From: Pedobacter insulae
Lineage (GTDB): Bacteria; Bacteroidota; Bacteroidia; Sphingobacteriales; Sphingobacteriaceae
Reading direction: 5' to 3'
NCBI RefSeq assembly: GCF_900113525.1
Contig: NZ_FOPP01000004.1
Coordinates: forward strand, 62,001 to 126,000
DNA: 64,000 bases
The translations under genes were made by a program, and so were the position numbers. The notes beneath the pieces were generated by a model, which saw only the letters and a list, made by a program, of their open reading frames with translations, did not search any database and was not told where the DNA came from. This document shows, one piece after another, positions 1,215 through 31,719 of the stretch (positions are counted from its first letter, which is position 1; each line of letters begins with the position of its first letter).

Positions 1215-1219
1215 TGGTG

Positions 1220-2677: not shown

Positions 2678-2685
2678 AGGTATCC

Positions 2686-13371: not shown

Positions 13372-14961
13372 ATGAATAAGTTAAAATATATAGCATTAGC
13401 ATTTACGCTCGTAATCAGCACGATGTCTTGCCGTAAAACACTAGATTTGGCGCCGGAAGATTACTTTGGAGATGGTAATTTTTGGCAAAACGAAGCACAA
13501 GTAAACAACTTCATGGCTGGTATGCATGGCCAGTTTAGAGGCAGTATGTTTCAGTTCGAACGCCTTGGCGAGTTAAGAGGTGGAAGCTTTAGCAATGTGG
13601 ACAGACAAAACACCTCTTTGAATGAACTACCTATCATACAACAAGATCTATCAGAGAACTCAACTGGTATTGGTAGTTGGGCCGGTTTTTATGAGCCAAT
13701 ATTGCAAATCAACTTGTTTATTCAAAAAGTTGAAGCAATAACATTTTTATCTCCTGCCAGAAAAAATGCTTTCTTAGGGCAAGCTTATGGATTGAGGGCT
13801 TATTATTATTTTCACCTATTGCGTACCTATGGAGGAGTTCCTATTCGCTTGGAACCCGAAGTTTCAAACGGTAAAATTGATCCCATAGAATTACGTAAAG
13901 CCAGAGCAACAGAAGCAGAGGTATTAACAGTAATCAAAGGCGACGTTAATAAATCGATTGAACTATTCAACGGTGTAGCTACTACTTCAGATAAAAGCCA
14001 ATGGTCGCCAAATGCATCACTGATGCTAAAAGGTGAAGTGTATTTATGGTCGGCCAAGGTATATAACACAACTGCCGATTTAGCCGATGCAAAAGCAGCT
14101 TTAAACGCCGTAACCGGAACGAGCTTACTAACTGGCACTGCCAGCAGCTTTGCAAACGTATTTAAAACTAAAAACAATAGTGAAATTATTTTTGCCATAA
14201 GATACGCTGTTGGAGAAGCCGAAATGCCTAGTGTAGCTCAATTTACTTACTCAACTTTTAATTTCGATGGTCAGCACTATAAAGACTCTGTTGCAAGTGC
14301 AGGAGTGGGTAATTTCTTGGTCGACCCACTAAAGTTGGCGCAAACAAACTCTCAACAGGTAATCCAACGCTATGCCTATACTTTTGAACTTTTCCAAACT
14401 TACAATGTGGCAGACAATAGGAGGAACGCCACTTTTTATGACTATTATAAAGTAAATACGGGCGTTAATCCAAGGGTTCCAACAATAAGAAATACTGCCT
14501 TAGTTAAATTCATTGGCCCAGACCCAGCTACAACAACCAATAAGAAATATTTTACAGACGATTGGCCGGTTTATAGGGAAGCAGACAGGCAATTAATGCT
14601 TGCAGAAATTGTGAACGCGGAAGGTGGAGATCCCTCGACTTATATTAAAGTTGTGAGAGACAGGGCTTTTGCGCCTCTATCAGATCCTACACCTTTTATA
14701 ACTAGTGGCAAGGATGCAAATGAACTGGCTATTTTCGCAGAACGAAGTAAGGAGTTTGTTTTTGAAGGTAAGCGATGGTATGATTTACGAAGAATGAAAT
14801 TTGCTAACGAGCCATTAGTATTTAAATCTCCAAACCATAAATATGGCGTGCTTGATAAAGCAACAGAGGGTTACGAAATTCTTTGGCCAATTGAAAAAGC
14901 GATATGGACCAATGATCCTTTAGTTAATCAAACACCTGGTTATCCTACTACCAAACCCTAA
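13372..14961 (+). CDS. SusD/RagB-family surface glycan-binding lipoprotein
   Basis: 529 residues with a lipoprotein signal peptide ending at Cys20 (STMSCRKTLDLAP). TPR-like helices and the SusD signature GQAYGLRAYYYFHLLRTYGGVPI are present near residue 140, and the C-terminal RagB segment has FAERSKEFVFEGKRWYDLRRM, as in the family. It caps the SusC transporter on the cell surface and binds the glycan. It is 10 bp downstream of susC. The neighbouring lyase, mutarotase and sialidase suggest a NanU-like sialic acid binder; binding residues cannot be assigned from sequence alone. Confidence 0.94.
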   Translation: MNKLKYIALAFTLVISTMSCRKTLDLAPEDYFGDGNFWQNEAQVNNFMAGMHGQFRGSMFQFERLGELRGGSFSNVDRQNTSLNELPIIQQDLSENSTGIGSWAGFYEPILQINLFIQKVEAITFLSPARKNAFLGQAYGLRAYYYFHLLRTYGGVPIRLEPEVSNGKIDPIELRKARATEAEVLTVIKGDVNKSIELFNGVATTSDKSQWSPNASLMLKGEVYLWSAKVYNTTADLADAKAALNAVTGTSLLTGTASSFANVFKTKNNSEIIFAIRYAVGEAEMPSVAQFTYSTFNFDGQHYKDSVASAGVGNFLVDPLKLAQTNSQQVIQRYAYTFELFQTYNVADNRRNATFYDYYKVNTGVNPRVPTIRNTALVKFIGPDPATTTNKKYFTDDWPVYREADRQLMLAEIVNAEGGDPSTYIKVVRDRAFAPLSDPTPFITSGKDANELAIFAERSKEFVFEGKRWYDLRRMKFANEPLVFKSPNHKYGVLDKATEGYEILWPIEKAIWTNDPLVNQTPGYPTTKP

Positions 14962-15022: not shown

Positions 15023-15065
15023 TTCCTATCCTGTCATCATGATTTTAAAAACTACTACATTTCCC

Positions 15066-15989
15066 ATGAATTTCAAACCACTAAAAGGTTTAATTGCAGC
15101 CCCATTTACACCGATGCATGCAAATGGAGACATAAATCCTTCCTTAATTCCCGCATATTATCAATTTTTAAAACGTAACAAAGTTACAGGAGCCTTCATT
15201 TGTGGGTCAACTGGAGAAGGTGTATCGCTCACCATGCAAGAAAAGATGCACATAGCAGAAGCCTGGGCAGATGCAACAAAAGATGATGAACATTTTAAAG
15301 TGATGACTTTGTTGGGTGGAACGTGTATTGCGGATTGCAAAGTATTGGCCAAACATGCCGAATCAATTGGGTTATATGCGGTTTCATTTACTGCACCTTC
15401 GTATTTTAAACCAGCAAATGCAGCTATTTTAGCCGAAATTTGTAAGGAAATAGCGATAGAAGTTCCCAATATGCCTTTTTATTATTACCACATTCCAGTG
15501 TTAACAGGAGCTAATATTGCCATGATCGATCTATTGAAAGAAGTAGATGGGAACATTCCAAATTTCGCTGGCATTAAATATACGCACGAAGATTTTATGG
15601 ACTTTCTTTCCTGTATGAACTTTAGCAGTGGTAAGTTCGATATGCTATGGGGTAGAGATGAAAATATGCTCTCCGCATTGGTATTGGGAACAAAGGCTTC
15701 TGTGGGTAGTACTTTTAATTACATAGCTCCTTTATACAATCAACTAATGGAAGCTTTCGAAGAAAATGATCTCCAAAAAGCAACAGCACTACAACAAAAA
15801 TCAATCGACTTTATTCGTTTACTGGGAAAGTACGGTGGTATCGCTACCGGAAAAGCATATATGAAGTTGGTTGATTTTGATTTTGGCGGATTTAGACTTC
15901 CTGTTAAGAATATGAGTGCTACTGCATTTGAGGATTTCAGCGCTGAGGTTGCAAACCTAGATTTTAAATCTTTTAGGTCGGTAAACTAA
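15066..15989 (+). CDS. nanA: N-acetylneuraminate lyase (DHDPS/NAL family)
   Basis: 307 residues from the ATG at 15066. The same frame opens at an ATG at 15039, nine codons earlier; the later one fits the family start (MNFKPLKGLIAAPFTPM). The TIM-barrel aldolase shows the GSTGEG phosphate/carboxylate loop, FYYYHIPV with the catalytic Tyr, and the Schiff-base Lys171 in FAGIKYTHEDF, close to Lys165 of E. coli NanA. The enzyme cleaves N-acetylneuraminate to N-acetylmannosamine and pyruvate in the cytoplasm. NAL rather than dihydrodipicolinate synthase is supported by the motifs and by its neighbours: mutarotase, sialidase and ManNAc epimerase. Confidence 0.9.
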   Translation: MNFKPLKGLIAAPFTPMHANGDINPSLIPAYYQFLKRNKVTGAFICGSTGEGVSLTMQEKMHIAEAWADATKDDEHFKVMTLLGGTCIADCKVLAKHAESIGLYAVSFTAPSYFKPANAAILAEICKEIAIEVPNMPFYYYHIPVLTGANIAMIDLLKEVDGNIPNFAGIKYTHEDFMDFLSCMNFSSGKFDMLWGRDENMLSALVLGTKASVGSTFNYIAPLYNQLMEAFEENDLQKATALQQKSIDFIRLLGKYGGIATGKAYMKLVDFDFGGFRLPVKNMSATAFEDFSAEVANLDFKSFRSVN

Positions 15990-16052
15990 AAAAGCGAACA
16001 TTTTGAGCGCCTAACTGCATTGGCAATGGTATCTTTACCTAAGCCTTTTTTT

Positions 16053-17204
16053 ATGAAAAACACTACTTTTTATCTTACTTTATTGATTACTACAATATTA
16101 ACTCCGAATTTATTGGCGCAAAAGGCAAACATCCACGACATTGCCTGGATTATGGCAGGCAACATTCCTCCTGCCCATCAACAAAATGTATCTGTCGGTC
16201 TGGCAGGTGCCGCGATTGGTGTTTTAGCCAATAAGCTTGTGCTTGCTGGGGGCAACAATTTTCCTGATCAAATGCCTTGGGAAGGAGGAAAGAAGCGTTA
16301 TTATGATGATATCTTTGTATACGCAAAGTCCACAACAGGTTTAACCTTAGCGGATACCAACTGTAAATGGAAACTCCCATTTAACTTAGCATACAGTGCT
16401 GTGTGCAGTACCCCTAAAGGAATGGTTATTGCGGGCGGAGAAAATGAGAATGGATTGGTTAATAAGGTTTTATTGCTAACATGGAATGCCGGAGCATTAA
16501 CGACCAGCTATCTGCCAGACTTACCGAATGGCTTAACTAATGCTGCCTTAACCTATAAAGGAGATAAACTTTATGTGGCTGGCGGAGAAAATGCGGATGG
16601 AGCCAGCAATCAGTTTTTATCTTTAAATTTAAACGCGTTAAACGATGGATGGAAAGCATTGGAAGATCTTCCCCATCCTGTTTCCCATACGGTATTAGTA
16701 AGCGCTGGTGATGAAATCTACCTTATTAGCGGTAGAATGAAGAACGTTGGCGATACCAGTACAATTTACAATCAGGTTTATGCTTTTAAGCTGAGTGAGC
16801 ATACCTGGACAACCAAAAATGCCATGCCTTATCCGGTGTCGGCTGCGACTGGAATAGTTAAAGGAAATGACATTTTAATCTTCAGTGGCGATGAGGGAAA
16901 GACTTTTCATGAAACCGAGAAGTTGATTGCTACGATAGACCGCGAAAAAGATACATTAAAGAAAGAAACGTTAAACCGGCAGAAGGCCAAACTTCAAGAA
17001 GGCCACCCAGGTTTTGCCAAAACGGTTTTAAAATACAGTCTTTTGAAGGGCAATTGGACAGTACTGAAAAGCACCATGCCGTATGGAACAGTAACTACAA
17101 CTGCGGTAATATTTGATGAGGAGATCGTCGTCGCTGGGGGCGAAATTAGAGCAGGCGTACGAACGCCTCATATTTTGGTAGGTAAAATAAAATATACAAA
17201 ATGA
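16053..17204 (+). CDS. nanM: Kelch-type N-acetylneuraminate mutarotase (epimerase)
   Basis: 383 residues from the ATG at 16053; an in-frame ATG at 16020 would add 11 residues ahead of a clear signal peptide, which is less plausible. Kelch-like repeats with paired glycines are visible: LVLAGGNNFPD, MVIAGGENENG, LYVAGGENADG, IYLISGR, ILIFSGDEG and IVVAGGE, consistent with a six-bladed propeller. WIMAGNIPP near the start is typical of the cyclically permuted mutarotase family that includes NanM. NanM speeds conversion of alpha- to beta-sialic acid in the periplasm. The stop codon overlaps the next start (ATGA), indicating coupling to the transporter. Confidence 0.88.
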   Translation: MKNTTFYLTLLITTILTPNLLAQKANIHDIAWIMAGNIPPAHQQNVSVGLAGAAIGVLANKLVLAGGNNFPDQMPWEGGKKRYYDDIFVYAKSTTGLTLADTNCKWKLPFNLAYSAVCSTPKGMVIAGGENENGLVNKVLLLTWNAGALTTSYLPDLPNGLTNAALTYKGDKLYVAGGENADGASNQFLSLNLNALNDGWKALEDLPHPVSHTVLVSAGDEIYLISGRMKNVGDTSTIYNQVYAFKLSEHTWTTKNAMPYPVSAATGIVKGNDILIFSGDEGKTFHETEKLIATIDREKDTLKKETLNRQKAKLQEGHPGFAKTVLKYSLLKGNWTVLKSTMPYGTVTTTAVIFDEEIVVAGGEIRAGVRTPHILVGKIKYTK

Positions 17205-18448
17205 TGGAAACCAAAAGATATGCTTGGACAGTAGTGGGCCTTCTATGGGTGGTTGCCCTGTTAAATTATATGGACCGGCAAATGCTCTCTACCATGAAAC
17301 CTTCCATGCAAATTGATATTGCAGATCTCCAATCGGCCACAAACTTCGGTTACTTAATGGCTATCTTCTTATGGATATACGGTTTTATGAGCCCGGTGTC
17401 GGGCATTATTGCCGATAAGTTTAATAGAAAATGGTTAATTGTAGGTAGCTTATTCGTGTGGAGTGCCGTTACCTTTGCAATGGGCTATGCCACAACATTT
17501 AATCAGCTCTATCTTTTAAGGGCTATTATGGGCGTAAGCGAAGCTTTATATATTCCTGCTGGCTTATCGCTCATTGCCGATTTTCATAGCTCTAAAACCA
17601 GATCCCTTGCTATTGGTATTCATATGACTGGTTTATACATGGGGCAGGCACTAGGCGGCTTTGGGGCCACAGTTGCTAAAAATTATACCTGGCAAGCTAC
17701 GTTCCACTTTTTTGGAATGATAGGCATTGTATATGCACTAATTTTAGTCTTCTTCCTGCGTGAGAAAAAGGTTGCTAAAGCAACCGCAACAGATCAGCTT
17801 ACCGCTGGCCCAAAAGTACCTATCCTTAAAGGCTTAGCATTATTGCTCAGTAATATTTCGTTCTGGATTATCTTAATGTATTTCGCTATTCCAAGTTTAC
17901 CCGGTTGGGGCGTTAAAAACTGGCTCCCAACTTTATTTGCGCAGAACTTAAACCTGCCTATGGAACAAGCCGGACCTTTGTCTACCATTACCATTGCCGC
18001 TTCTTCGTTTATCGGTGTAATTTTTGGCGGTATCTTATCAGATAGGTGGGTGCAGAAAAACTTGAAGGGCCGCATTTATACGAGTGCAATAGGTTTGGGC
18101 CTAACCATTCCTTCGCTATTATTGATAGGCTTTGGTCATTCTTTGTTTCATGTAGTAGGTGCAGCACTTTGCTTCGGAGTGGGTTTCGGAATGTTCGATG
18201 CAAATAATATGCCTATATTGTGTCAATTTGTTTCCTCGAAATACCGTGCAACAGCTTATGGAATAATGAATATGACAGGCGTATTCGCAGGTGCCTATAT
18301 TACAGATTTACTGGGAAAATCAACTGATTCTGGAAACTTAGGTCATGATTTTGCCATGTTATCCATCATCGTCTTTGCAGCCTTAATGATCCAACTTTAT
18401 TTCTTACGTCCAAAATTTAACGACTTTACAGATGCTCAAACCAATTAA
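17201..18448 (+). CDS. nanT: MFS transporter, probable sialic acid importer
   Basis: 415 residues with about 12 predicted membrane helices. The N-terminus YAWTVVGLLWVVALLNYMDRQ and the loop motif GIIADKFNRKW are typical of the anion:cation symporter (ACS/ExuT-like) branch that carries sugar acids. LYLLRAIMGVSEALYIPAG is the family's helix-4 region. Bacteroides and Tannerella nan clusters carry an MFS transporter of this kind (NanT) in the same place. It would move free sialic acid from periplasm to cytoplasm, after SusCD uptake and mutarotation. It overlaps nanM by 4 bp, and the sialidase gene starts 3 bp after its stop. Confidence 0.85.
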   Translation: MMETKRYAWTVVGLLWVVALLNYMDRQMLSTMKPSMQIDIADLQSATNFGYLMAIFLWIYGFMSPVSGIIADKFNRKWLIVGSLFVWSAVTFAMGYATTFNQLYLLRAIMGVSEALYIPAGLSLIADFHSSKTRSLAIGIHMTGLYMGQALGGFGATVAKNYTWQATFHFFGMIGIVYALILVFFLREKKVAKATATDQLTAGPKVPILKGLALLLSNISFWIILMYFAIPSLPGWGVKNWLPTLFAQNLNLPMEQAGPLSTITIAASSFIGVIFGGILSDRWVQKNLKGRIYTSAIGLGLTIPSLLLIGFGHSLFHVVGAALCFGVGFGMFDANNMPILCQFVSSKYRATAYGIMNMTGVFAGAYITDLLGKSTDSGNLGHDFAMLSIIVFAALMIQLYFLRPKFNDFTDAQTN

Positions 18449-18451
18449 CAT

Positions 18452-20002
18452 ATGAAAGCTATGAGATTAAAATTAAGCCTAGGTTTATTGTTGATATTCA
18501 ACCTGTTTGCTTTTCAGGCTTTTTCAACTACAGGAATTACAATTACGGCTTCAGCACCAGTGTCGCCAATATTTAAAGGAATAGAGTCTAATCCTTTATT
18601 GTATTTACGAATATATGTTCCTGCGGGAGAAAAACTATCATTACGGAAGTTAACGCTAAAAGCAAACTCCGCCGCATTACAAGCCGTTGAAAGCGTAGAT
18701 GTATATTTTACCGGTAGAGAAGCCTCCTTTAATGAAAAAGAACATTTGGCAAAGCTTAACCCTACCAGAATCAGTGAAAGCTTGGCAATTAGCCTACACT
18801 TAAAACCCGGTGTAAATTATATTTGGTTCAGTGCCAAACTTAAAAAAGACGCAGATATCGATTCAAAGATCGAGTTTCATGTTGTCCAACTGGAGGATGT
18901 AAATTCAAAGAAACATCAAGTTAGGGAGGTAGGGAAAGGATTTGTAAAACGATTGGGTATTGCAGTAGTTAAAGGTGGCCAAAACGACATCCATACCTTT
19001 AGAATTCCGGGAATAGCTACAACAGATAAAGGTACATTAATTGCGGTATACGATATACGATATAAAAATTCGAGAGATCTGCCAGCAAATATTGATGTAG
19101 GTATGAACAGAAGTACAGACGGTGGTAGAACATGGGAGCCGATGAAAGTGATGATGGATATGGGCGAACCACACGACAACAACGGGGTGGGAGATCCCGC
19201 GGTGCTTTTCGATCCCATTACCAAAAAGATTTGGGTAATCGCATTGTGGAGTAAAGGAAATCGCTCTATCGCAGGGTCAAAACCTGGTCTCTCAGAAGAT
19301 GTTACCGGACAGTTGGTGGTAGTAAGTAGTGATGATGATGGCCTTACCTGGTCGAAACCCAAAAGCATCACCGCTGGGGTGAAAGATCCAGAATGGAATT
19401 TGTTTTTTAACGGCCCCGGTAGCGGAATAGCGATGGCTGATGGTAAAATTGTTTTCGCTGCACAATATTGGGACGAGCATGCTATGCCGCACTCAACATT
19501 AGTGTATAGTGTAGATCATGGTACAACCTGGAAAACTGAAGACGGACCGATCCCAAATACAACAGAAGCACAGCTTATAGAAACCTCACCTGGAACATTA
19601 ATGTTAAATATGAGAGATAACCGGGGAAGTTTTAGAAGTATTGCCACCACGGCTGATTTGGGTAAAACCTGGACCGAACACCATACTTCTTACCAAGCAC
19701 TGCAAGATCCAGTTTGTATGGCCAGCTTTATCAAAGCTAATGTTCTAGTTAAAGGCAAACAACAGCAAGTAGTCTTCTTCGGAAATGATAATACGCAAAA
19801 TGGCAGGTTTAATTTAACTATCAAAGCTAGTACGGATTTAGGCGAAAGCTGGGACAGCAAAAATGAGCTATTGGTTGATGATCGAAAGTTATTCGGCTAC
19901 TCATCCCTAACAAAGATCGATGATGGCATGATTGGTTTCTTTTATGAAGGTGTGAGAGATATGTATTTTGTACGTATCCCGGTAACCGAAATCTTAAAAT
20001 AA
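18452..20002 (+). CDS. nanH: Exo-alpha-sialidase (GH33) with N-terminal BNR-associated domain
   Basis: 516 residues with a signal peptide (to about residue 25). An N-terminal beta domain (about 27-160) matches the BNR-associated domain of Bacteroidota sialidases. The catalytic propeller opens with the F/YRIP motif FRIPGIA (Arg184) and carries Asp boxes STDGGRTW, SSDDDGLTW, SVDHGTTW, TADLGKTW and STDLGESW. TEAQLIE supplies the catalytic Glu, NMRDNRG an active-site Arg, and FGYSSLTKIDDG the nucleophilic Tyr. It releases terminal sialic acid from glycoconjugates in the periplasm or at the surface. It is tightly packed in the nan operon, with 3-4 bp gaps on both sides. Confidence 0.95.
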   Translation: MKAMRLKLSLGLLLIFNLFAFQAFSTTGITITASAPVSPIFKGIESNPLLYLRIYVPAGEKLSLRKLTLKANSAALQAVESVDVYFTGREASFNEKEHLAKLNPTRISESLAISLHLKPGVNYIWFSAKLKKDADIDSKIEFHVVQLEDVNSKKHQVREVGKGFVKRLGIAVVKGGQNDIHTFRIPGIATTDKGTLIAVYDIRYKNSRDLPANIDVGMNRSTDGGRTWEPMKVMMDMGEPHDNNGVGDPAVLFDPITKKIWVIALWSKGNRSIAGSKPGLSEDVTGQLVVVSSDDDGLTWSKPKSITAGVKDPEWNLFFNGPGSGIAMADGKIVFAAQYWDEHAMPHSTLVYSVDHGTTWKTEDGPIPNTTEAQLIETSPGTLMLNMRDNRGSFRSIATTADLGKTWTEHHTSYQALQDPVCMASFIKANVLVKGKQQQVVFFGNDNTQNGRFNLTIKASTDLGESWDSKNELLVDDRKLFGYSSLTKIDDGMIGFFYEGVRDMYFVRIPVTEILK

Positions 20003-20006: not shown

Positions 20007-22079
20007 ATGAAGACTGTTGCCAGGGTAATTATTGCGCTCACATTTTTGTGCAGTAACAATGTATACGGACAAAAAATTAAAGTTGCTTGCGTTGGAAATT
20101 CTGTAACAGCTGGATATTTATTACCTAATCCCTTACAGAATTCGTATCCCGCTCAACTGCAACAATTGTTAGGTAATAACTATGAAGTGGGCAATTTTGG
20201 CTTAAGTGGAGCAACGCTTTTAAAGAAAGGGCACAGGCCTTACAATAAAACTAAGGAATTCATTAACCTGTTAAACTTTAAAGCTGATATTGCCATAATT
20301 CATTTAGGGTTAAATGACACAGACCCCAGAAATTGGCCAAATTTTAAAGATGAGTTTCAAAGTGATTATCAATGGTTAATAGATACCTTGAAACAAGGAA
20401 ATCCTCATATGAAGATTTATATCTGCAGTCTCAGTCCTATTTTTAGCGGACATTCAAGATTCAAATCAGGAACTCGTGATTGGTATTGGCAAATTCAGGA
20501 AAAAATAGAATCCATTGCCAAGGTTAACCACCTCCCGCTGATAGATCTATATGCAGCCTTACATAATCGCCCTGAGCTTTTTGCCGATAATCTTCATCCT
20601 GACAAAAGGGGGGCAGGAATTATCGCCAAAGCAGTTTATCAAAATATAACCGGCGATTTTGGAGGCTTTAAGTTGGATCCTTTATTTGCTGATCATATGG
20701 TATTACAGCGCGACCAATTAATTGGTGTATATGGAACAGCTAATGCGAACGACCAGATAGAAGTTAACTTTAATAATATGATTAGGCGTGTAGTAACAGA
20801 TCGTACAGGAAAGTGGAAAGTTCAATTCCCTGCTATGAAGTTTGGAGGGCCTTACAATTTAACAATCGTTTCTGGTACTCAAACACGGCGTTTGAAAGAT
20901 ATCCTTATTGGAGATGTTTGGTTATGCTCCGGTCAATCTAATATGGCTTTTCCTTTAAAATCAGCCGCAAACGGTATTAACACAATTGCTAATCTGAACA
21001 AAAATTTACCCATAAGATTGTTAAAGTTTAATGCAATCGCTGAAACGGATAATATATCTTGGGATCAACAGACATTAAATGCGCTGAATGAACTTGCGTA
21101 TTTCTCTGCAACATGGACAAATTTGGAACCTAATACCGTTGCTGATTTTTCAGCAGTTGCTTATTATTTTGGCGAAAAGTTAGCAAAGCAAGTAAATGTA
21201 CCAATAGGGTTAATTCAAATGGCAGTAGGTGGCTCAACACTCGAGTCGTGGATCGATAGAAAGACATTAGAACATGACGATCTTTTAGTCGATTTAACGA
21301 ATAACTGGCGGAAATCTGACTTTATGCAAGAGTGGGCAAGGGGCAGGGCGGATATGAACCTGAAAAATGCAGGTAATCCAAAGCAAAGACATCCTTATGA
21401 ACCTGCCTATAATTACGAAGCTGGGATTTCAAAGCTGATCAAATTCCCTATCAAAGGGATAATTTGGTATCAAGGAGAAAGTAATGCGCATAATGTAGAA
21501 CTTTTTAACCACGAAATGCCCGTGTTAGTGAAAAGCTGGCGAAAACATTGGAATGCTGATTTTCCTTTTTATTATGTACAACTGTCGGCCATAGATCGCC
21601 CATCATGGCCATACTTCCGCAATGCACAGCGAAAACTCCAATCCCTTATCCCAAACGCCGCAATGGCAGTGAGTTCAGATCTTGGAGACTCATTAAATGT
21701 GCACCCAGTACATAAAAGGGAAGTGGGTGAAAGATTAGCACGCTTAGCGCTGAAAAACACTTATCACCAAAATATCAAAGCCAGCGGACCAGATGCAGTG
21801 AAAGCGATTAGAAAGGGCAATTTGATCGTAATTACTTTTAACCATGCGCAGAAATTACAGCCTAGCAATGGATCCATTTTAAAGGGCTTTGAAATAGAAG
21901 ATGATAAAGGAAATCGTCTGCTAGTTAAAGCAAATATTTATAAAAATGAGGTCCATTTAACCATACCGCCTAATCGGATTGTCGTTAAGGTGCTTTATGC
22001 TTGGCAGCCATTTACAAGAGCAAATCTGGTGAACGAAGTTAAACTGCCAGCCTCAACATTTTCTATTACCGTAAAATAA
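20007..22079 (+). CDS. nanS: Two-domain sialate O-acetylesterase (GDSL + SASA)
   Basis: 690 residues with a signal peptide (to about YGQK, residue 22). The first esterase domain (about 24-212) is SGNH/GDSL-like: VACVGNSVTAGY gives the nucleophile block, IIHLGLNDTD the N block, and DNLHPDKRGAG the Asp-x-x-His block. The second domain (about 220-670) is the SASA sialate O-acetylesterase type with Ser311 in LCSGQSNMAF, AVGGSTLESW, and GIIWYQGESN. Removing O-acetyl groups lets sialidase and lyase act on O-acetylated sialic acids. Two-domain enzymes of this kind are known from Tannerella and Bacteroides. It sits 4 bp after the sialidase gene. Confidence 0.9.
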   Translation: MKTVARVIIALTFLCSNNVYGQKIKVACVGNSVTAGYLLPNPLQNSYPAQLQQLLGNNYEVGNFGLSGATLLKKGHRPYNKTKEFINLLNFKADIAIIHLGLNDTDPRNWPNFKDEFQSDYQWLIDTLKQGNPHMKIYICSLSPIFSGHSRFKSGTRDWYWQIQEKIESIAKVNHLPLIDLYAALHNRPELFADNLHPDKRGAGIIAKAVYQNITGDFGGFKLDPLFADHMVLQRDQLIGVYGTANANDQIEVNFNNMIRRVVTDRTGKWKVQFPAMKFGGPYNLTIVSGTQTRRLKDILIGDVWLCSGQSNMAFPLKSAANGINTIANLNKNLPIRLLKFNAIAETDNISWDQQTLNALNELAYFSATWTNLEPNTVADFSAVAYYFGEKLAKQVNVPIGLIQMAVGGSTLESWIDRKTLEHDDLLVDLTNNWRKSDFMQEWARGRADMNLKNAGNPKQRHPYEPAYNYEAGISKLIKFPIKGIIWYQGESNAHNVELFNHEMPVLVKSWRKHWNADFPFYYVQLSAIDRPSWPYFRNAQRKLQSLIPNAAMAVSSDLGDSLNVHPVHKREVGERLARLALKNTYHQNIKASGPDAVKAIRKGNLIVITFNHAQKLQPSNGSILKGFEIEDDKGNRLLVKANIYKNEVHLTIPPNRIVVKVLYAWQPFTRANLVNEVKLPASTFSITVK

Positions 22080-22085: not shown

Positions 22086-23267
22086 ATGAGCTATACAAAG
22101 GAAGAGCTGAAGAATCTCTCAGTATTTTATAAAAATCAGTTATTGAATAATACAGTGCCTTTTTGGTTTCCTAAATCCATTGATGAAGAATATGGTGGTT
22201 ATTTGTTAATGCGTGATCAGGACGGGAGTTTAATTGACGACGATAAAGCGGTTTGGATCCAAGGGCGTGCTGCCTGGTTATTATCCACACTTTATAATAC
22301 CATAGAATCTAAAAAGGCCTGGCTGGATGGTGCAAAATCAGGGATAGATTTTTTGAATAAATACTGTTTTGATACAGATGGCCAAATGTTTTTCCACGTT
22401 ACACGAGAGGGAAACCCAATTCGTAAAAGAAGATATTACTTTTCCGAAACCTTTGCGGTTATTGCCAACGCCGCCTATGCAAAAGCGAGTGGCGATGAAG
22501 AGGCTGCTGAAAAGGCCAGATATCTTTTTGGGAAATGTATTGAATACGCAACCAAACCTGATCTTTTGCCTGCGAAATTTACAGGTACACGCCCTGCAAA
22601 GGGTATTGGTGTACCCATGATTATGATGAACACCGCACAGCAATTAAGAGAAACCATCGGCGACCCACGTTGTGATGAATGGATCATGAAATGGATTGAT
22701 GAAATCAACAACAACTTCGTAAAAGACGACATCAAATGTGTAATGGAGCAAGTTGCGCCAGATGGGGCTATTATTGATCATGTAGACGGAAGAACCTTAA
22801 ACCCTGGTCACGCTATAGAAGGAGCATGGTTTATTTTGCATGAGGCAAAATACCGGAACAACGACCCCGAATTGATTGCATTAGGTTGTAAAATGCTCGA
22901 CTATATGTGGGAGCGTGGATGGGACAAGGAGCACGGCGGGATCTTATATTTTAGAGACGTATATGATAAACCTGTACAAGAGTATTGGCAGGATATGAAA
23001 TTCTGGTGGCCGCACAACGAAACAATCATTGCCACATTGCTCGCCTATACATTAACTGGAGATGAAAAATATGCCCGCTGGCATAAAATGGTTCATGATT
23101 ATGCCTATCAAAAATTTCACGATCGTGAACATGGTGAATGGTTTGGTTATTTACATAGAGATGGCTCATTAGCACAAACTGCAAAAGGTAATCTTTTTAA
23201 AGGACCCTTTCATTTACCCAGACAAGAGTGGTATTGTTCACAACTATTACAAGAACTAGGATATTAA
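22086..23267 (+). CDS. nanE: AGE-family N-acylglucosamine 2-epimerase
   Basis: 393 residues, the usual length. The (alpha/alpha)6 barrel family signatures are visible: KAVWIQGRAAWLLSTLYN near residue 55, RRYYFSETFAVIANA near 118, LNPGHAIEGAWFILHEA near 238, the active-site-type KFWWPHNETIIATL, and GEWFGYLHRDGS at the end. This type of epimerase interconverts N-acetylmannosamine and N-acetylglucosamine without phosphate. In Bacteroides fragilis such a NanE acts between NanL and a GlcNAc kinase. No signal peptide is present, so it is cytoplasmic. The kinase is not in this window. The gap to the previous gene is 6 bp. Confidence 0.92.
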   Translation: MSYTKEELKNLSVFYKNQLLNNTVPFWFPKSIDEEYGGYLLMRDQDGSLIDDDKAVWIQGRAAWLLSTLYNTIESKKAWLDGAKSGIDFLNKYCFDTDGQMFFHVTREGNPIRKRRYYFSETFAVIANAAYAKASGDEEAAEKARYLFGKCIEYATKPDLLPAKFTGTRPAKGIGVPMIMMNTAQQLRETIGDPRCDEWIMKWIDEINNNFVKDDIKCVMEQVAPDGAIIDHVDGRTLNPGHAIEGAWFILHEAKYRNNDPELIALGCKMLDYMWERGWDKEHGGILYFRDVYDKPVQEYWQDMKFWWPHNETIIATLLAYTLTGDEKYARWHKMVHDYAYQKFHDREHGEWFGYLHRDGSLAQTAKGNLFKGPFHLPRQEWYCSQLLQELGY

Positions 23268-23279: not shown

Positions 23280-25973
23280 ATGTTTCTAACAAAAAAAAAA
23301 ATATTAACGGTTTCCTTTCTTTTATGGTGTATGGGTGTAATCGCACAGGCACCGTTAACCCTTATTCCAAAACCACAATCACTTGTCCTATCGAAAGACC
23401 AGTTCCCTATTCATCAAGTAAAATATATTTTCTATTCAGTAGATTCATTAAAAAATGAAGCTTTATTAGTTCAGAAAATATTAGCTGCTGAAAACATTAC
23501 TGCAAAAATTGTAAAGGGAAATAAAGCTATTGGCAACCCGTTTATTAAGCTCGAAATAGGATCGCCCGCTCTTGGCGAGCAGCAAAAAGAAGCTTATCGG
23601 CTAAAAGTTGAGGCAACAAAAATTGTGATAACAGCTTACACCCGAACGGGAATATATTATGGTGCCCAAACGTTAAAACAGTTGAGCGGCAGTCGTTTTG
23701 TAAAGGCAATCGACATCCAAGATGCTCCCGCTTTTGCTTGGAGGGGATATATGGTTGATGTAGGGCGTAATTACCAATCGATGGCAATGCTGAAACAACA
23801 AATTGATGTCATGGCCCAATATAAATTAAATGTGTTTCATATGCATTTAACAGAAGATATTGCTTGGCGCTTAGCTATTAAACGGTATCCGGAGCTAACA
23901 AACGCACAGTACATGGAACGAAATAAAGGCAAGTATTATTCGACCGCAGAAATTAAAGAACTTATCCGTTATTGCCGAGAAAGACACATACAGTTTGTTC
24001 CAGAAATTGATATGCCTGGGCATAGCGCTGCTTTTAAACGAGCAATGAAAGTAGATATGCAGAGTGATTCAGGTTTAGCCATTGTAAAAAATATCTTAAA
24101 AGAATTTTGCGAAACTTACGATTTACCCTATATCCATATAGGAGCTGATGAAGTAAAGATTACCAATAAGAATTTTTTGCCTGAGATTTTGGCCCTGCTT
24201 AAATCGCTAAATAAAAAGGTAGTTGGCTGGGAACCAGGGGGTAATTTCGATGAATCTACCATTAGGCAATTATGGATGGATGATGCGGGACTAACTAGCG
24301 GGAAAACTAAGATCCAATACATTGATTCGAGACATTTATATGTTAATCATATGGATCCCCTGGAAAGTGTGGTTACCATTTTTAACAGACAATTAGCGGA
24401 TGTAGATACCGGAAATGAGACTGCTTTGGGCGCAACTTTATGTGTTTGGCCAGATCGTGCCGTTGCGCATGAAAGTGATATACTGCGAATGAATGGCGTT
24501 TATCCTGCAATGTTGGCCTTTGCTGAACGTAGTTGGTTAGGAAAGGGTTATAGCGGTTGGGTAGCAAATATGGATCTAAATGGGGCACAGGCGCTAACCG
24601 AATTTAAGGACTTTGAGAGACGTTTGTTAGTTCATCAACAACAAAATTTTACTGGAATGCCGTTCCCTTATCAAGCGCAATCAACCATAAGTTGGCAACT
24701 ATATGGGCCCTACCCTAATGGGGGCGACTTATCAAAAGCTTTCGAACCTGAGAAACCTATTTTTAAACAGGAAGAGGCATCGGCAAAACAAACTGCATTA
24801 GGGGCAACAATTATTCTCAGGCATTGGTGGGCGCCAAAAATTAAAGGTGTGATACAAAATCCTAGCCCAAATACTACCTGGTATGCATTCAGAAAAATAT
24901 GGGCAGAGAAAGATACAATTAAAAACTTTTGGATTGGTTTTGGTAACCCATCAAGATCACAAGCAACAGATACCCCGCCGTTAAATCAATGGGATACACA
25001 CCAATCAGCAGTCTGGCTCAATGGTGAATTGATTTCACCACCTGTATGGCTTCGTGCCGGTCAGAAGGGTAATTTAGAAATTCCATATGTAGACGAAAGC
25101 TATGAGTATCGACCGCCCGTATCCTTGAAATTAAGGAAAGGCTGGAATATCATCCGTATTAAAGCACCCATTGGTAGTTTTAATGGAAAGAACTGGAATA
25201 ATCCCGAAAAATGGATGTTCACCTTTGTTGCGGTACCAGATGCTGTACCAAAGCAATCCAAGTATAAACTCGTTTGGTCTGATGAGTTTAAAGGAAAAGG
25301 GGGCTTCGACTCAACAAAATGGCAATATAGTGTACGTGGAAAAGTAGCATGGAACAAGTACATGACGGCACTGCCAGCTTATGCCTCTTTAAATAAGGGC
25401 AATCTCCTATTGAGAATGGATAGTGCAGTGATTCCTAATGATCCTTTGCCATATCATGCTGGTGGCGTACAATCATCGGGTAAATTTAGTATTACCTATG
25501 GTAAAATAGAAGTTCGGGCTAAATTTACCCAAGGTAAGGGTTCATGGCCGGCAATATGGATGATGCCTGAACCAAAAACCGCTCATGGTAATGGTTGGCC
25601 AGCTGGTGGTGAAATTGATATAATGGAGCACGTAAATAATGATAGTGTTATTTACCAAACAATCCATAACAGTGTAGTAACTGATGCCAGTGGCGGAAGT
25701 AAAGCCTCTAATTCAACATCATACCGTCAAAACAATTATAATATTTATACTATTGAATGGACTCCTTCAAGCATCAAATTCTTTGTTAATAACGTTTTAA
25801 CATACACTTACCTTAAAGCTGCCAATGGCGACCTTAAACAGTGGCCCTTCGATGTTCCGTTTTACCTAATTCTTAATCAGGCAGGTGGTGCTGGATGGCC
25901 TGGTCCAATCAATAAGGCACATCTTCCTTTTTCCATGCAGGTTGATTATGTACGCATTTATAAATTAACTTAA
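23280..25973 (+). CDS. GH20 beta-hexosaminidase fused to a C-terminal GH16 domain
   Basis: 897 residues with a signal peptide (to about residue 24). Residues 25-150 form the GH20b-like N-domain; the GH20 barrel runs from about 151 to 430 with FAWRGYMVDVGR, FHMHLTED, PEIDMPGHSAA and the catalytic Asp290-Glu291 pair in YIHIGADEV. Residues 460-655 form a beta-rich linker domain (WKxxNxFWIGFGNPSRS and LKLRKGWNIIRIKAP). From about 660 to the end is a GH16 jelly roll, starting KLVWSDEFKG, with catalytic Glu778, Asp780 and Glu783 in GGEIDIMEHVNN. A GH20 exo-enzyme and a GH16 endo-type enzyme in one chain suggests coordinated attack on an N-acetyllactosamine-containing glycan. Confidence 0.9.
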   Translation: MFLTKKKILTVSFLLWCMGVIAQAPLTLIPKPQSLVLSKDQFPIHQVKYIFYSVDSLKNEALLVQKILAAENITAKIVKGNKAIGNPFIKLEIGSPALGEQQKEAYRLKVEATKIVITAYTRTGIYYGAQTLKQLSGSRFVKAIDIQDAPAFAWRGYMVDVGRNYQSMAMLKQQIDVMAQYKLNVFHMHLTEDIAWRLAIKRYPELTNAQYMERNKGKYYSTAEIKELIRYCRERHIQFVPEIDMPGHSAAFKRAMKVDMQSDSGLAIVKNILKEFCETYDLPYIHIGADEVKITNKNFLPEILALLKSLNKKVVGWEPGGNFDESTIRQLWMDDAGLTSGKTKIQYIDSRHLYVNHMDPLESVVTIFNRQLADVDTGNETALGATLCVWPDRAVAHESDILRMNGVYPAMLAFAERSWLGKGYSGWVANMDLNGAQALTEFKDFERRLLVHQQQNFTGMPFPYQAQSTISWQLYGPYPNGGDLSKAFEPEKPIFKQEEASAKQTALGATIILRHWWAPKIKGVIQNPSPNTTWYAFRKIWAEKDTIKNFWIGFGNPSRSQATDTPPLNQWDTHQSAVWLNGELISPPVWLRAGQKGNLEIPYVDESYEYRPPVSLKLRKGWNIIRIKAPIGSFNGKNWNNPEKWMFTFVAVPDAVPKQSKYKLVWSDEFKGKGGFDSTKWQYSVRGKVAWNKYMTALPAYASLNKGNLLLRMDSAVIPNDPLPYHAGGVQSSGKFSITYGKIEVRAKFTQGKGSWPAIWMMPEPKTAHGNGWPAGGEIDIMEHVNNDSVIYQTIHNSVVTDASGGSKASNSTSYRQNNYNIYTIEWTPSSIKFFVNNVLTYTYLKAANGDLKQWPFDVPFYLILNQAGGAGWPGPINKAHLPFSMQVDYVRIYKLT

Positions 25974-25995: not shown

Positions 25996-28029
25996 ATGAA
26001 ATTAAAACTTGCTTTTGCCCTTCTTTCAGTGCTGTTCACGTATCATGTTAATGCACAAAATAGTGCACCCTTCGTTATTCCAAAATTACAGGAATGGACA
26101 GGTAACACAGGCTTCTATACCTTAAAATCAACTATAAACTTGGTTGTAGATGACAAGCTTAACGACTTGTTAACCACTTATGTCCAAACGTTTGCCAATG
26201 ATTTAAAAGCTGTTTATCCAAAGAGAAATATTCGGATTAAAACCGGTAAACCTCAAAAAGGAGATATTTATTTTCATGTCGATAACAATAGTCAATCAAT
26301 CGCAAGCGAGGGATATGAACTGCAAATAGCCGACTATCTAACTATCCATGCAAAAACACCTCTCGGAGCGTTTTGGGCCACCAGAACTATTCTTCAAATT
26401 TTAGCACAAGATCCAACCCAGCTCAAAATTCCGAAAGGGATAGCAAAAGACTTCCCTAAATATGAAGTAAGGAGCTTTGTGCTAGATGTTGGCCGTAAAT
26501 TTTTTACGATAGATTTTCTAAGAAACTATGTGAAGTTATTGTCTTATTATAAAATGAACGACTTTCAAATTCACTTAAACGATAACGGATTTAAGCAGTT
26601 TTTTAACAACGATTGGAGTAAAACCTATTCGGCATTTAGACTGGAGAATGCAACTTACCCTGGCCTTACTGCCAAAGATGGAAGTTATAGCAAGAAAGAG
26701 TTTATCGACTTACAGAAATTGGGTAATACTTATGGTGTAACCATTGTACCTGAAATTGATGCACCTGCCCATGCATTATCAATAACCAAAGCAGTACCCG
26801 AAATCGCCAGTGATAAATATGGTGCGGACCACCTGGATATCACTAAGCCCAAAACTTACGAAGTGGTTCACAATATATTTAAAGAATATTTACAAGGACC
26901 AAACCCCGTATTCATTAATGAAGAAGTGCATATTGGTACAGATGAATATGCTAAAGCTGAGGCAGAAAACTTCAGAAAGTTTACCGATAGCACCATAAAA
27001 TACGTAGAAAGCTTTGGTAAGAGGGTTAGACTTTGGGGTGCGCTTACCCACGCAAAGGGACAAACACCCGTGAAATCGACCAACGTAACCATGAACCTTT
27101 GGTATAACGGCTATGCAGAACCGGCCGAGATGTTTAAATTGGGTTATAAGGGTATCAGTACACCAGATGGGTGGCTATATATTGTTCCAAAAGCAGGTTA
27201 CTATTATGATTACCTCAATCTAAAAAATATTTATCAAAAATGGGCACCCAATGTGATTGGAAAAGAAGTGTTTTCAGAAGATAATAAGCAAATAAGAGGT
27301 GGAGCCTTTGCCGTTTGGAATGATCATGTAGGCAATGGAATTACTCAAGAAGATGTAACAGATCGTGTTTTTCCAGCACTTCAGGTATTGTCGCAAAAAA
27401 TGTGGATAGGAAATACGGCCGATAGTTTAATGAAGTTTGAAGTTTTTAATGGATTAAGTAAACAAATAGGTGAAGGACCAGGCTTAAATCTTCGTGGAAA
27501 GGTAAACGGGAAGGATAGTTTGGTATTGCAATACGATTTTACCAGTTCAAAATCGGGGAGATTTACGGGTAAGAAGAAACCGTTCCAAACCACTTTAAAC
27601 GAAATTGGTTATGATTACACAGTTTCATTCACCATAAACCCGAGCGCCGGAAATCCTGCAAACGCAGTCATTTTTTCATCGCCAAAAGCTATTGTTAAAC
27701 TTAAACAGTTGAATACTTCGATGTTAGGCTTCTCAAGAGAAGGTTATGATTATAATTTTAATTATACCGTGCCAGAAAATGTATGGACTAAAATTACTAT
27801 CACAGGCAATAACAAGGGTACTTCTTTGTATGTGAATGGTGTGTTCGTGGAACGTTTAGAAGGTGCTATGCAATCATTCGCAAATACAAAAGACAAGATA
27901 GCTAAGGTGCAAACATTATTTTTTCCTTTAAAATATATAGGCGATACACAAAATAGTTTTAAAGGTGCAATTGGTAGTCTAAAAGTTTTTAATAAAGTAT
28001 TAACTGATAAGCTAATTAGTAAATTATAG
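25996..28029 (+). CDS. GH20 beta-N-acetylhexosaminidase with C-terminal LamG-like domain
   Basis: 677 residues with a signal peptide (to VNAQN, about residue 22). A GH20b-like N-domain (about 25-150) precedes the catalytic barrel, with VRSFVLDVGRKFF, MNDFQIHLNDNG, VPEIDAPAHALS and the catalytic Asp316-Glu317 in VHIGTDEYAK. A further active-site-region motif is GGAFAVWNDHVG. Residues about 500-677 look like a concanavalin/LamG fold, with VWTKITITGNNKGTSLYVNG and FKGAIGSLKVFNKVLT. It should remove terminal GlcNAc or GalNAc. It is quite different in sequence from the GH20 part of its upstream neighbour, so the two likely have different linkages or substrates. It starts 22 bp downstream. Confidence 0.93.
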   Translation: MKLKLAFALLSVLFTYHVNAQNSAPFVIPKLQEWTGNTGFYTLKSTINLVVDDKLNDLLTTYVQTFANDLKAVYPKRNIRIKTGKPQKGDIYFHVDNNSQSIASEGYELQIADYLTIHAKTPLGAFWATRTILQILAQDPTQLKIPKGIAKDFPKYEVRSFVLDVGRKFFTIDFLRNYVKLLSYYKMNDFQIHLNDNGFKQFFNNDWSKTYSAFRLENATYPGLTAKDGSYSKKEFIDLQKLGNTYGVTIVPEIDAPAHALSITKAVPEIASDKYGADHLDITKPKTYEVVHNIFKEYLQGPNPVFINEEVHIGTDEYAKAEAENFRKFTDSTIKYVESFGKRVRLWGALTHAKGQTPVKSTNVTMNLWYNGYAEPAEMFKLGYKGISTPDGWLYIVPKAGYYYDYLNLKNIYQKWAPNVIGKEVFSEDNKQIRGGAFAVWNDHVGNGITQEDVTDRVFPALQVLSQKMWIGNTADSLMKFEVFNGLSKQIGEGPGLNLRGKVNGKDSLVLQYDFTSSKSGRFTGKKKPFQTTLNEIGYDYTVSFTINPSAGNPANAVIFSSPKAIVKLKQLNTSMLGFSREGYDYNFNYTVPENVWTKITITGNNKGTSLYVNGVFVERLEGAMQSFANTKDKIAKVQTLFFPLKYIGDTQNSFKGAIGSLKVFNKVLTDKLISKL

Positions 28030-28030: not shown

Positions 28031-29800
28031 ATGAAAAGGATATCTGTCAACCTCTTATGGTCTTTTCTACTGTTTGTTTCAATGGCAAAAATAGGATATG
28101 GGCAAGCTAACCCTGCTATATTTTTGTTTAATAACCAAGCGAAAATTATCCCGCTTAAGGGACTTGCCGAAAGAAGAATTGCCAGTATCAATTTTGGTTC
28201 GGTACACGCCTCAGTATTCGATAGTCTCTTGAGTAAATATGCTTCAATCAACAATTTTGATGCGACTTCTTATCGAACAGATTCACTTCATCTAGCTAAT
28301 TTAATGGGCGACTATCTGAAGTTTTATAATACCTTGATTATCCAGGTAACAGCCCAGTCACTAAATGACCCCGAGATTATCAGTTTTATTGCTGAAAACC
28401 AACAAAGGAAAAAACTCGTTATTGCTGGTTTTGGAGAGCTCAAAGCACTTAAGAAGCTCGACTTCATTACAGGACCTGTAATATGGAGCACAACGCTTAG
28501 TGCTGAAGCGGCTGATCATACAGCACAAATAATTTTTGGCGGTTTGGCAGCAAAAGGTACATTAAAGCAAAATATCAGTGCTAAATACAAAGCAGGATCG
28601 GGGTATTCGACTACAAAAACCCGATTACGATATGCCATGCCAGAAAGTGTGGGCATTAAATCCGCGGATTTAGATAGTATTGATTTAATTGCTGCAGAAG
28701 CAATTCGCGAAAAGGCAACGCCAAGCGCCGTAGTACTCGTTATAAAGGATGGTACGGTAATCTTTAATAAGGCTTATGGGTCACATACCTATGATGGAAC
28801 CGAGCCAACTAAACTAACAGATATTTATGATTTAGCTTCAGTTACCAAAGTATCGGCTACTACCGTTTCGGCGATGAAGCTATATGAGCAGCACAAAATT
28901 AGTCTCGATAAAACAATAGGCGATTATATACCCAATGCAAGAAACACAAATAAGGAAGATTTAAAGGTTAGGGAGCTATTAACGCACCAATCTGGTGTAA
29001 CCCCAGTTTCATTTTATCTCAAACTTAGACCGGAAGAATATAGCGCTGATTCTTCCAGATTATACCCTGTAAAAGTAACCGATGGCTATTACTTTAAACC
29101 AGGGTATTTTAGGGAAATGTTTTGGCCAGCTTTTTTGAAAGCACCCCTCAAGAACCGCGGTACTTATCTCTATACAGATATGAACCTATACGTAATGAAA
29201 GAGATCGTGGAGTGGCAATCGGGTGTGCCTATCGAGAAATATGTACAAGATCAGTTTTATAGACCACTTGGTATGTATACGGCTGGGTTTTTACCAAGAA
29301 ACCGTTTCGAAAAAAGCCAGATTGTACCCACCGAAGAGGAGGGTAACTTTCGCAAATCATTACTTCATGGATACGTACATGATCCTGGTGCATCATTAAT
29401 GGGTGGAGTTTCTGGTCATGCAGGTCTGTTTTCGAGTGCGAATGACCTAGGTATACTTTACCAAATGTTACTTAATAAAGGTACCTATGGAGGCGAAAGC
29501 TACTTTAAGCCCGAAACAGTTAAGTTGTTTACTGCTAAACAGTCTGCTGTAAGTAGGAGAGCGCTAGGCTTTGATATGTACGATCCGGATACAACTAAAA
29601 ACTACCCCGCTAAACTTGCTTCTCCTGGCACATTTGGGCACACCGGATTTACTGGAATTTGTGTTTGGGTTGATCCGAAGTACAATTTGATTTATGTATT
29701 TCTCTCAAACCGTGTTCATCCAAAAATTACCGATAAGCTTTATCAATTAAATATTAGAAGCAGGATTCAAGATGTTGTTTACCGCGCCTTAAAAAAGTGA
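28031..29800 (+). CDS. Class C beta-lactamase-like serine hydrolase with an orphan GH3 C-terminal-like domain
   Basis: 589 residues with a signal peptide (to about YGQAN, residue 27). Residues 30-195 resemble the alpha/beta-sandwich (C-terminal) domain of GH3 enzymes, with LFNNQAKIIPLKGL, RIASINFG, KLVIAGFGE and a GGLAAKGTLKQNIS stretch matching the GH3 FGxxxxxGxLP element. From about 200 the serine hydrolase domain has Ser270-x-x-Lys273 in LASVTKVSA, Tyr381 in YTDMN, and HTGFTG as the KTG-like box. GH3-beta-lactamase fusions of about 1000 residues are common in Bacteroidota; here the GH3 catalytic barrel is absent. It starts 1 bp after the GH20 gene, so it closes the operon. Confidence 0.88.
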   Translation: MKRISVNLLWSFLLFVSMAKIGYGQANPAIFLFNNQAKIIPLKGLAERRIASINFGSVHASVFDSLLSKYASINNFDATSYRTDSLHLANLMGDYLKFYNTLIIQVTAQSLNDPEIISFIAENQQRKKLVIAGFGELKALKKLDFITGPVIWSTTLSAEAADHTAQIIFGGLAAKGTLKQNISAKYKAGSGYSTTKTRLRYAMPESVGIKSADLDSIDLIAAEAIREKATPSAVVLVIKDGTVIFNKAYGSHTYDGTEPTKLTDIYDLASVTKVSATTVSAMKLYEQHKISLDKTIGDYIPNARNTNKEDLKVRELLTHQSGVTPVSFYLKLRPEEYSADSSRLYPVKVTDGYYFKPGYFREMFWPAFLKAPLKNRGTYLYTDMNLYVMKEIVEWQSGVPIEKYVQDQFYRPLGMYTAGFLPRNRFEKSQIVPTEEEGNFRKSLLHGYVHDPGASLMGGVSGHAGLFSSANDLGILYQMLLNKGTYGGESYFKPETVKLFTAKQSAVSRRALGFDMYDPDTTKNYPAKLASPGTFGHTGFTGICVWVDPKYNLIYVFLSNRVHPKITDKLYQLNIRSRIQDVVYRALKK

Positions 29801-29862: not shown

Positions 29863-31719
29863 ATGATTTTAATATTAAGAAGAATAAGCCTCTGCTCGAT
29901 AATATTTGTCGCAAGTAGTCTTGCGGCATTGGCACAGAAAAGCTATAACTATAGTGTAAACTTAAATGAAGTTAAAGACGATCGTTTAACAATTACGCTT
30001 CACACTCCAAAAGTTAAAACAGCTACAACTACTTTTTATCTACCTAAGATTGTACCAGGAACTTATATGTATAGCGATTATGGCCGTTTTGTACACAATC
30101 TTAAGGCACTCAATAAAGCCGGCGATACACTTCAGGTGAAAAGAACGAGTGATAATAGCTGGGAAATTACTAATGCGAAAAAGTTATTTAAAATTGTATA
30201 TGATGTAGAAGATACTTGGGATACCAAAATCAAAGGCTTTGTATATCCTATGGCTGGCACTAATTTTGAACAAGGTAAAAACTTTGTGTTCAATACCTGC
30301 GGTGTTTTTGGCTATCTCGATAAACTGAAAGACCTTCCCTTTGAGTTAAACATTATTAAACCTACAGGTTTTTATGGCTCAACTGGTTTAGTACCTGTAA
30401 AAACTTCTGCCACTGCCGATATTTATAAATGTAACAATGCAGACCACTTATATGATTCGCCGATTATGTTCAGTTTGCCTGATACAACTTCTGTAAAAGT
30501 CGGGAATACGGATGTGCTGGTATCTGTATATTCTCCAAATAAGCTGGCGAAATCTGCTTTTATTGCCGAACACCTGAAAGAGATTTTATTAGCTACAAAT
30601 CAATACCTGGGCGGTAAGTTGCCAGTAAATAAATATGCGTTTATTTATTATTTTAATGGAGAACAAACACCTTTCAATATTTCTGGTGCTTGGGAACATT
30701 CTTATTCTTCATTTTATAGCTTAAATGAGCAACCACAGGAAGAAGCCATTGGCAGTTGGGTCGATATGTCTGCGCATGAATTTTTCCATATTGTAACCCC
30801 ATTAACCATCAGTTCTAAAGAAGTAAAGAAATTTGATTTTAATAATCCTGTTCTTTCTAAGCATTTATGGTTATATGAGGGTAGTACAGAGTATGATGCA
30901 CACCATGTACAGGTGCAATATGGAATTAACACTGTTGAAGAGTTTTTGAAGAAATTAAGTACAAAGATTACCAATTCTAGACAGCAACTAAATGACACTT
31001 TGAGTTTTACCGAATTAAGTAAAGAAAGTGCTGGGAAATGGAAAAATGAATATGGCAATGTCTACGAAAAAGGAGCTTTAATATCCGCTTCGCTAGATTT
31101 GTATTTATTGAAATTATCTAATGGAAAATATGGCTTAGCTAACCTTAAGCAGGAGCTTAGTGCTAAATATGGGAAGGATAAATATTTTGATGACGATGAG
31201 CTTTTTGATGTGATTGAGAAAATGACCTATCCGGAGATCCGTACTTTTTTTAGCAAGTATGTAGAAGGTGGTACCCCGATCCCGTACGATCAGTTTTTTG
31301 GCTATGCAGGTGTTAAGCATATACCAGAAACAGAAATTAAGGCGGTGACACTAGGCGGTTTCGCACCTGGCTTAAATGCCGAAGGTGTCATTTTTATTGC
31401 TAATGCAAATCGTTTAAATGATTTTGGTAAAGCAATGGGTTATAAATTGGGTGATGAAATTATTAGTTTAAACAACATTAAATTAACTCCAGCAAATTTC
31501 GGAACCGTTACAGGAAACTTTAGTGCAAATGCCAAAGAAGGTGATAAATTAACAATCGTCGTCAATCGAAAAAATGCCAGTGGCGTTAAGGAAGAGGTTG
31601 TTTTGTCGCAACCCGTTCAGTTTGTAAAAAAGATAGACTATAACAGACTTGAACTTATGACTGATGCTACGCCGGAGCAATTAGCCATTCGAAAAATATG
31701 GTTGGGAGAAGGTAAATAA
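29863..31719 (+). CDS. M61-family glycyl aminopeptidase
   Basis: 618 residues with a signal peptide (to about LAALAQK, residue 26). The zinc motif H-E-x-x-H is His305-Glu306-His309 in SAHEFFHIV, and the third ligand Glu is in LWLYEGSTEYDA. A PDZ-like domain occupies the C-terminus (about 480-590: LNAEGVIFIANANRL, MGYKLGDEIISLNN). Members are periplasmic aminopeptidases preferring N-terminal Gly or Ala. It is 62 bp after the serine hydrolase gene and has its own likely -7 box, so it is probably not part of the glycan operon, although read-through is possible. Confidence 0.92.
   Translation: MILILRRISLCSIIFVASSLAALAQKSYNYSVNLNEVKDDRLTITLHTPKVKTATTTFYLPKIVPGTYMYSDYGRFVHNLKALNKAGDTLQVKRTSDNSWEITNAKKLFKIVYDVEDTWDTKIKGFVYPMAGTNFEQGKNFVFNTCGVFGYLDKLKDLPFELNIIKPTGFYGSTGLVPVKTSATADIYKCNNADHLYDSPIMFSLPDTTSVKVGNTDVLVSVYSPNKLAKSAFIAEHLKEILLATNQYLGGKLPVNKYAFIYYFNGEQTPFNISGAWEHSYSSFYSLNEQPQEEAIGSWVDMSAHEFFHIVTPLTISSKEVKKFDFNNPVLSKHLWLYEGSTEYDAHHVQVQYGINTVEEFLKKLSTKITNSRQQLNDTLSFTELSKESAGKWKNEYGNVYEKGALISASLDLYLLKLSNGKYGLANLKQELSAKYGKDKYFDDDELFDVIEKMTYPEIRTFFSKYVEGGTPIPYDQFFGYAGVKHIPETEIKAVTLGGFAPGLNAEGVIFIANANRLNDFGKAMGYKLGDEIISLNNIKLTPANFGTVTGNFSANAKEGDKLTIVVNRKNASGVKEEVVLSQPVQFVKKIDYNRLELMTDATPEQLAIRKIWLGEGK

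Follow-up and report, generated by a model that had tools for sequence, protein, structure and literature searches.

A GH20-GH16 gene closing a sialic acid operon

The window, by which we mean the whole 64,000-nucleotide stretch analysed, carries a nan operon on the forward strand. Genes for SusC, SusD, NanA, NanM, an MFS transporter, a GH33 sialidase, an acetylesterase and an N-acylglucosamine 2-epimerase (AGE) are followed at its end by a gene in which two glycoside hydrolases are joined (Table 1). The neighbours named in a preliminary description of this DNA, i.e., a GH33 sialidase, a SASA/GDSL acetylesterase, a second GH20 and two sulfatases, are all present. The order SusC/D-NanA-NanM-MFS-(GH33)-acetylesterase-AGE-GH20 is kept in many genomes of the family. 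A GntR/FCD regulator gene (9067-9771, minus strand) is divergent from susC and, by its position, may encode a NanR-like regulator of the operon. Right after the second GH20 gene, on the same strand, lie genes for a beta-lactamase/PBP4B-like protein (28031-29800) and an M61 peptidase (29863-31719). Promoter and terminator scans near the fusion gene gave scores no better than those of shuffled sequences.

Table 1 Features of the fusion gene and of its neighbourhood in the window
Feature	Positions	Strand	Evidence or remark
Sulfatase 1, CSPSR motif	6041-7504	+	intact CxPxR
Sulfatase 2, CGPSR motif	7525-9054	+	intact CxPxR
SusC/RagA TonB-dependent transporter	9948-13361	+	TIGR04056, 2.4e-220
SusD-like lipoprotein	13372-14961	+	profile match; lipobox present
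N-acetylneuraminate lyase (NanA-like)	15039-15989	+	profile match
N-acetylneuraminate epimerase (NanM-like)	16020-17204	+	PF24996
MFS transporter, NanT-like by position	17201-18448	+	PF07690
GH33 sialidase (BNR)	18452-20002	+	profile match
GDSL and sialate O-acetylesterase (SASA)	20007-22079	+	PF13472, PF03629
N-acylglucosamine 2-epimerase (AGE)	22086-23267	+	NF052547, 2.5e-111
GH20-GH16 bifunctional glycoside hydrolase, 897 aa	23280-25973	+	closing position in nan operon
Signal peptide, type I, without lipobox (cleaved between MFLTKKKILTVSFLLWCMGVIA and QA; Trp immediately ahead of Cys17)	23280-23345	+	sequence, homolog comparison; cleavage site estimated
GH20 domain 2 (aa 27-149)	23358-23726	+	PF02838, 1.3e-15
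GH20 catalytic domain (aa 152 to about 420; end approximate)	23733-24539	+	PF00728, 6.2e-47
GH20 C-terminal part (aa about 421-652)	24540-25235	+	homolog comparison; kept in stand-alone orthologs, whose ends fall here
Short linker, fusion joint (aa about 653-660, PDAVPKQS)	25236-25259	+	GH20 orthologs stop at about 652; GH16 orthologs align from about 655-662
GH16 domain, O-glycanase clade (aa 661-897)	25260-25970	+	Pfam, tree, model
Second GH20, different type, with laminin-G domain	25996-28029	+	24% identical to first GH20

The fusion gene is a single frame of 897 residues with no internal stop. GH20 domain 2, the GH20 catalytic domain and the GH16 domain (PF00722, residues 707-871, 6.9e-19) all exceed the curated Pfam cut-offs, which excludes chance domain matches. 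The GH20 catalytic pair, D290-E291, lies within YIHIGADEV (24147-24152) and the GH16 triad, E778, D780 and E783, within GGEIDIMEH (25611-25628), an ExDxxE motif; the residue numbers first proposed for both sites are exact in the 897-residue chain. The two Pfam domains and the Asp-Glu pair identify the N-terminal part as GH20, and its closest sequences in the PDB are beta-hexosaminidases, not lacto-N-biosidases.

GC and GC3 are equal across the joint (0.395/0.328 on one side, 0.397/0.306 on the other). The linker was checked for a leftover signal peptide or lipobox and contains none, so that neither a frameshift artefact nor the mere loss of a stop codon is a likely origin of the joint. A chance reading frame or frame artefact is likewise ruled out by the continuous frame, the Pfam domains and the intact catalytic residues. 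Judged from its sequence, then, the GH20-GH16 fusion protein is real, and both of its families are known. A full-length AlphaFold model (six rows; pLDDT 48, pTM 0.34) was too poor for mutual placement of the active sites.

Placement of the GH16 domain

The GH16 domain has the beta-jellyroll fold and the ExDxxE motif of its family, and its model (pLDDT 95.4) matches GH16 structures. The three-tryptophan motif described for finger 3 of GH16 subfamily 3 (PMC7419316) is present ahead of the catalytic strand as W756, W760 and W773 in SWPAIWMMP...GWPAGGEIDIME. In two trees of 71 and 68 domains, neither of which includes Amuc_0724, an O-glycanase of a second origin, the domain falls with 100/100 support in a clade with the mucin O-glycanases BACCAC_03717 (6T2R), BF4060 (6T2S) and BACCAC_02680 (6T2O; PDB-to-locus assignments from PMC10154620). 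All laminarinase and glucanase references (3iln, 3azx, 5wut, 6xof and 7wwc) lie outside that clade, split off by a 100/100 branch, so that the domain is not placed among the beta-glucanases as a laminarinase-type GH16_3 enzyme would be. The affinity with mucin-active GH16_3 enzymes suspected from the outset is thus supported. Several local features are also shared with the O-glycanases: two tryptophan platforms are recognisable in the sequence, one residue is deleted after GEIDIME, and the motif YQTxH occurs where glucanases mostly have xGTxH.

Within the clade, the domain belongs to a sub-branch of 10 rows, all from Sphingobacteriaceae, that is sister to the tested O-glycanases and not nested among them; we therefore infer its function from theirs. 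The clade, known from gut mucin degraders, thereby comes to include Sphingobacteriaceae that have sialic acid operons. DUF4971, which the characterised O-glycanase BT2824 contains (PMC7419316), is also present in L084 and L087 of the clade.

Whole-domain comparisons bear on a different reading, in which the GH16 part would be a beta-1,3- or beta-1,3/1,4-glucanase of the laminarinase type, joined to GH20 by accident or for use on fungal walls containing glucan and chitin. The best whole-domain sequence match in the PDB is the laminarinase 3iln (151 bits, against 146 for 6T2R). Foldseek and VIA-align place 6T2R at the top for the domain model but tied with laminarinases (VIA-align Z of 32.9 versus 32.2), and fold ranking therefore does not discriminate between O-glycanases and laminarinases. 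Moreover, an O-glycanase such as Amuc_0724 can retain laminarinase side activity (PMC7419316). However, a glucanase is unlikely given the 100/100 grouping with O-glycanases, an operon and sulfatase context that points to sialic acid and not to glucan or chitin, and two other GH16s of the same genome that, among the matches listed, fall outside the clade (L002, for example, adjoins 7wwc).

The composition of the clade raises the further possibility of an endo-beta-galactosidase with another target, either a sulfated galactan from algae or the beta-1,3-galactan of arabinogalactan proteins. Such a target may hold for the members of the clade that come from soil bacteria or from marine Flavobacteriaceae, and galactanase specificity evolved more than once in GH16 (PMC7419316). 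In the window, however, genes for a sialidase, an acetylesterase, NanA, NanM and GH20s adjoin, and the linkage of GH16 to the nan operon recurs in other species: in Sphingobacterium (L075 and the similarly organised L060-L062), a GH16 gene closes the operon. We regard such a target as quite improbable. Relatives of sulfatase 2 (65-69% identity) lie beside GH16 genes of the O-glycanase clade in other genomes, and the operon and sulfatases together would fit sialylated, sulfated LacNAc glycans.

The GH20-GH16 pairing in other genomes

Whole-protein searches were run at the level of the family (301 genomes), genus (145), order (400) and class (395), covering about 810 distinct genomes. Homologs of the GH20 part are many, and the closest are 48-67% identical and end at residue ~652. 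These stand-alone GH20s of Sphingobacteriaceae nan operons share the gene order and the domains of the fusion up to residue 652, but they stop there or bear an SGNH/GDSL esterase domain in place of GH16. Homologs of the GH16 part are separate genes with up to 72% identity. No second full-length GH20-GH16 match was found in the ~810 genomes, this order being confined to one genome. By the counts in the search tables, 25 genomes have strong matches to both genes, and in 7 of them (G232, G208, G292 and G256, which are close kin, and G167, G160 and G203) the two lie within 20 kb of each other; by our estimate, well under one such pairing would be expected by chance. In G203, the match runs on to residue 692, past the point where the GH20 ends; this extension was considered as a GH16 remnant and dismissed as noise.

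The search for the same architecture thus came back empty for this domain order, but it did reveal a reverse-order fusion in an uncultured rumen Bacteroidales (RUG265). The gene, L093:9923-12448, encodes an 842-residue protein with GH16 at residues 27-266 and GH20 from residue 349, both with their catalytic motifs. It unites the same two enzyme lineages in one chain, but in the opposite order, with no nan operon seen around it and with both domains on different branches of their families. In the tree, its GH16 lies in the BACCAC_03717 group, outside the sub-branch of the window; the identity of this GH16 is 44% with BACCAC_03717 and 36% with the GH16 of the window. Its GH20 is 32% identical to that of the window over residues 104-655 and 37% to the L046 type. 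Since the two GH16s are on different branches, the fusions arose separately.

A corresponding pair of genes occurs in three genomes of the window's own genus (L046, L047 and L049, around 600-3430), where GH16 and GH20 genes adjoin directly or overlap and a GH29 fucosidase gene comes next. The GH16 is a possible lipoprotein, and a sulfatase or GDSL gene lies upstream. The order of the pair is the order within the L093 protein, and the L046 GH20, the one of the three that was compared, is nearest to the L093 GH20. In Pontibacter sp. E15-1 (L076:9875-20700), a GH16 of the O-glycanase clade is followed by four sulfatases, one of them 66% identical to sulfatase 2, and by GH29 and GH20; the stretch looks like a locus for sulfated, fucosylated LacNAc. 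In a Candidatus Cryptobacteroides (L084:10827-12695), a GH18 domain is joined to a GH16 of the O-glycanase clade, and a GH18 gene also lies near GH16 in L101 and L069.

The GH20 lineage of the nan operons has entered other fusions as well. An N-terminal SGNH/GDSL esterase is found by Pfam in L055:8442-11039 and L171:1643-4231 and by sequence likeness in L058:8780-11467, L068:8236-10839 and L074:8843-11452. The esterase is at the C terminus in L166:2217-5288, and a 1539-residue chain (L167:3156-7775, G481:C101) combines GH20, a sialate O-acetylesterase (SASA) and a NanM epimerase. That several partners of this lineage are enzymes of the same pathway favours function over accident. That the fusion arose recently as a selectively neutral accident, or is an assembly error, and has no functional meaning, as the occurrence in 1 of ~810 genomes might suggest, is very improbable in view of these partners, the separate reverse fusion in L093, the unbroken frame with even GC3, two intact catalytic sites and the clean absence of the GH16 signal peptide.

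Two such fusions, formed independently and with the domains in reversed positions, provide strong evidence from nature that consecutive steps are carried out by GH16 O-glycanases and this GH20 lineage; the recurrence of the pairing points to a connection between the two cuts. Our literature search, which covered few subscription journals, found no paper on a GH20-GH16 or GH16-GH20 architecture. The families being known, we regard their combination as a new architecture, one that the literature searched does not describe.

Location and order of the two cuts

The nearest relatives of the GH16 part are separate GH16-CBM_4_9 lipoproteins of Sphingobacteriaceae (59-72% identical), whose genes are sometimes beside or inside a nan operon. 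A lipobox is present in 14 of the 18 listed rows of these relatives, with some genes listed twice, and a CBM_4_9 tail is common, whereas the fusion protein has neither. The GH20 homologs have ordinary signal peptides, and the signal of the fusion protein is of this GH20 type. The fused GH16, having no lipobox, has thus probably exchanged a surface location for a periplasmic one, and the whole protein probably acts in the periplasm on oligosaccharides imported by SusCD.

The known GH16 subfamily 3 O-glycanases (BACCAC_03717, BF4060, BACCAC_02680 and BT2824), with which the GH16 part shares its clade, catalytic motif and tryptophan platforms, are endo-acting enzymes from mucin PULs with SusCD (Crouch et al. 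2020, PMC7419316). They cut Gal-beta-1,4-GlcNAc in poly-LacNAc and require sialic acid to have been removed (PMC7419316). Unlike the protein of the window, they are single GH16 enzymes (BT2824 with DUF4971), 5 of 9 are lipoproteins, and none is joined to GH20 (PMC7419316).

On this basis the fusion probably has two activities directed at LacNAc-containing glycans of host type, with an endo cut by GH16 followed by exo trimming by GH20. We propose the following steps, as predicted from the sequences and gene context: (i) The GH33 sialidase and the acetylesterase would strip sialic acid first. (ii) The GH16 domain, like its characterised clade-mates, would act as an endo-beta-1,4-galactosidase on Gal-beta-1,4-GlcNAc inside poly-LacNAc, each cut yielding a fragment with a non-reducing GlcNAc. 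(iii) The joined GH20, an exo-beta-N-acetylhexosaminidase, would take off that GlcNAc. (iv) GlcNAc, and ManNAc from sialic acid, would feed one catabolic route via AGE. The fusion would keep endo cleavage and exo trimming together at one site, in the periplasm, where SusCD would deliver the oligosaccharides.

Of the earlier proposals, a GH16 of the poly-LacNAc type holds insofar as the domain groups with O-glycanases and the sialic acid and sulfatase context fits, and is tempered by a sub-branch that is only sister to the tested enzymes. The suggestion that terminal HexNAc is trimmed first and the internal cut made afterwards probably has the order reversed: O-glycanases cut Gal-beta-1,4-GlcNAc and thereby expose the terminal GlcNAc on which GH20 depends (PMC7419316), which makes endo first and exo second the natural order. 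Pressed further, and with rather less confidence, the argument would be that an endo-acting GH16 O-glycanase and an exo-acting GH20 hexosaminidase came to be joined on two or more occasions, once in each order, because the cut by the former produces the substrate of the latter, and that the protein of the window may be the first described one-chain, two-step degrader of poly-LacNAc, moved from surface to periplasm. If so, it would be a ready-made two-step enzyme and a candidate for the analysis of mucin and keratan sulfate.

Nan operons of other species hold further enzyme genes. A second, secreted GH33-like sialidase is encoded in or next to the operon in L060:9557-10723 and L035:257-1447, and in L035 a GH2 gene comes after GH20.
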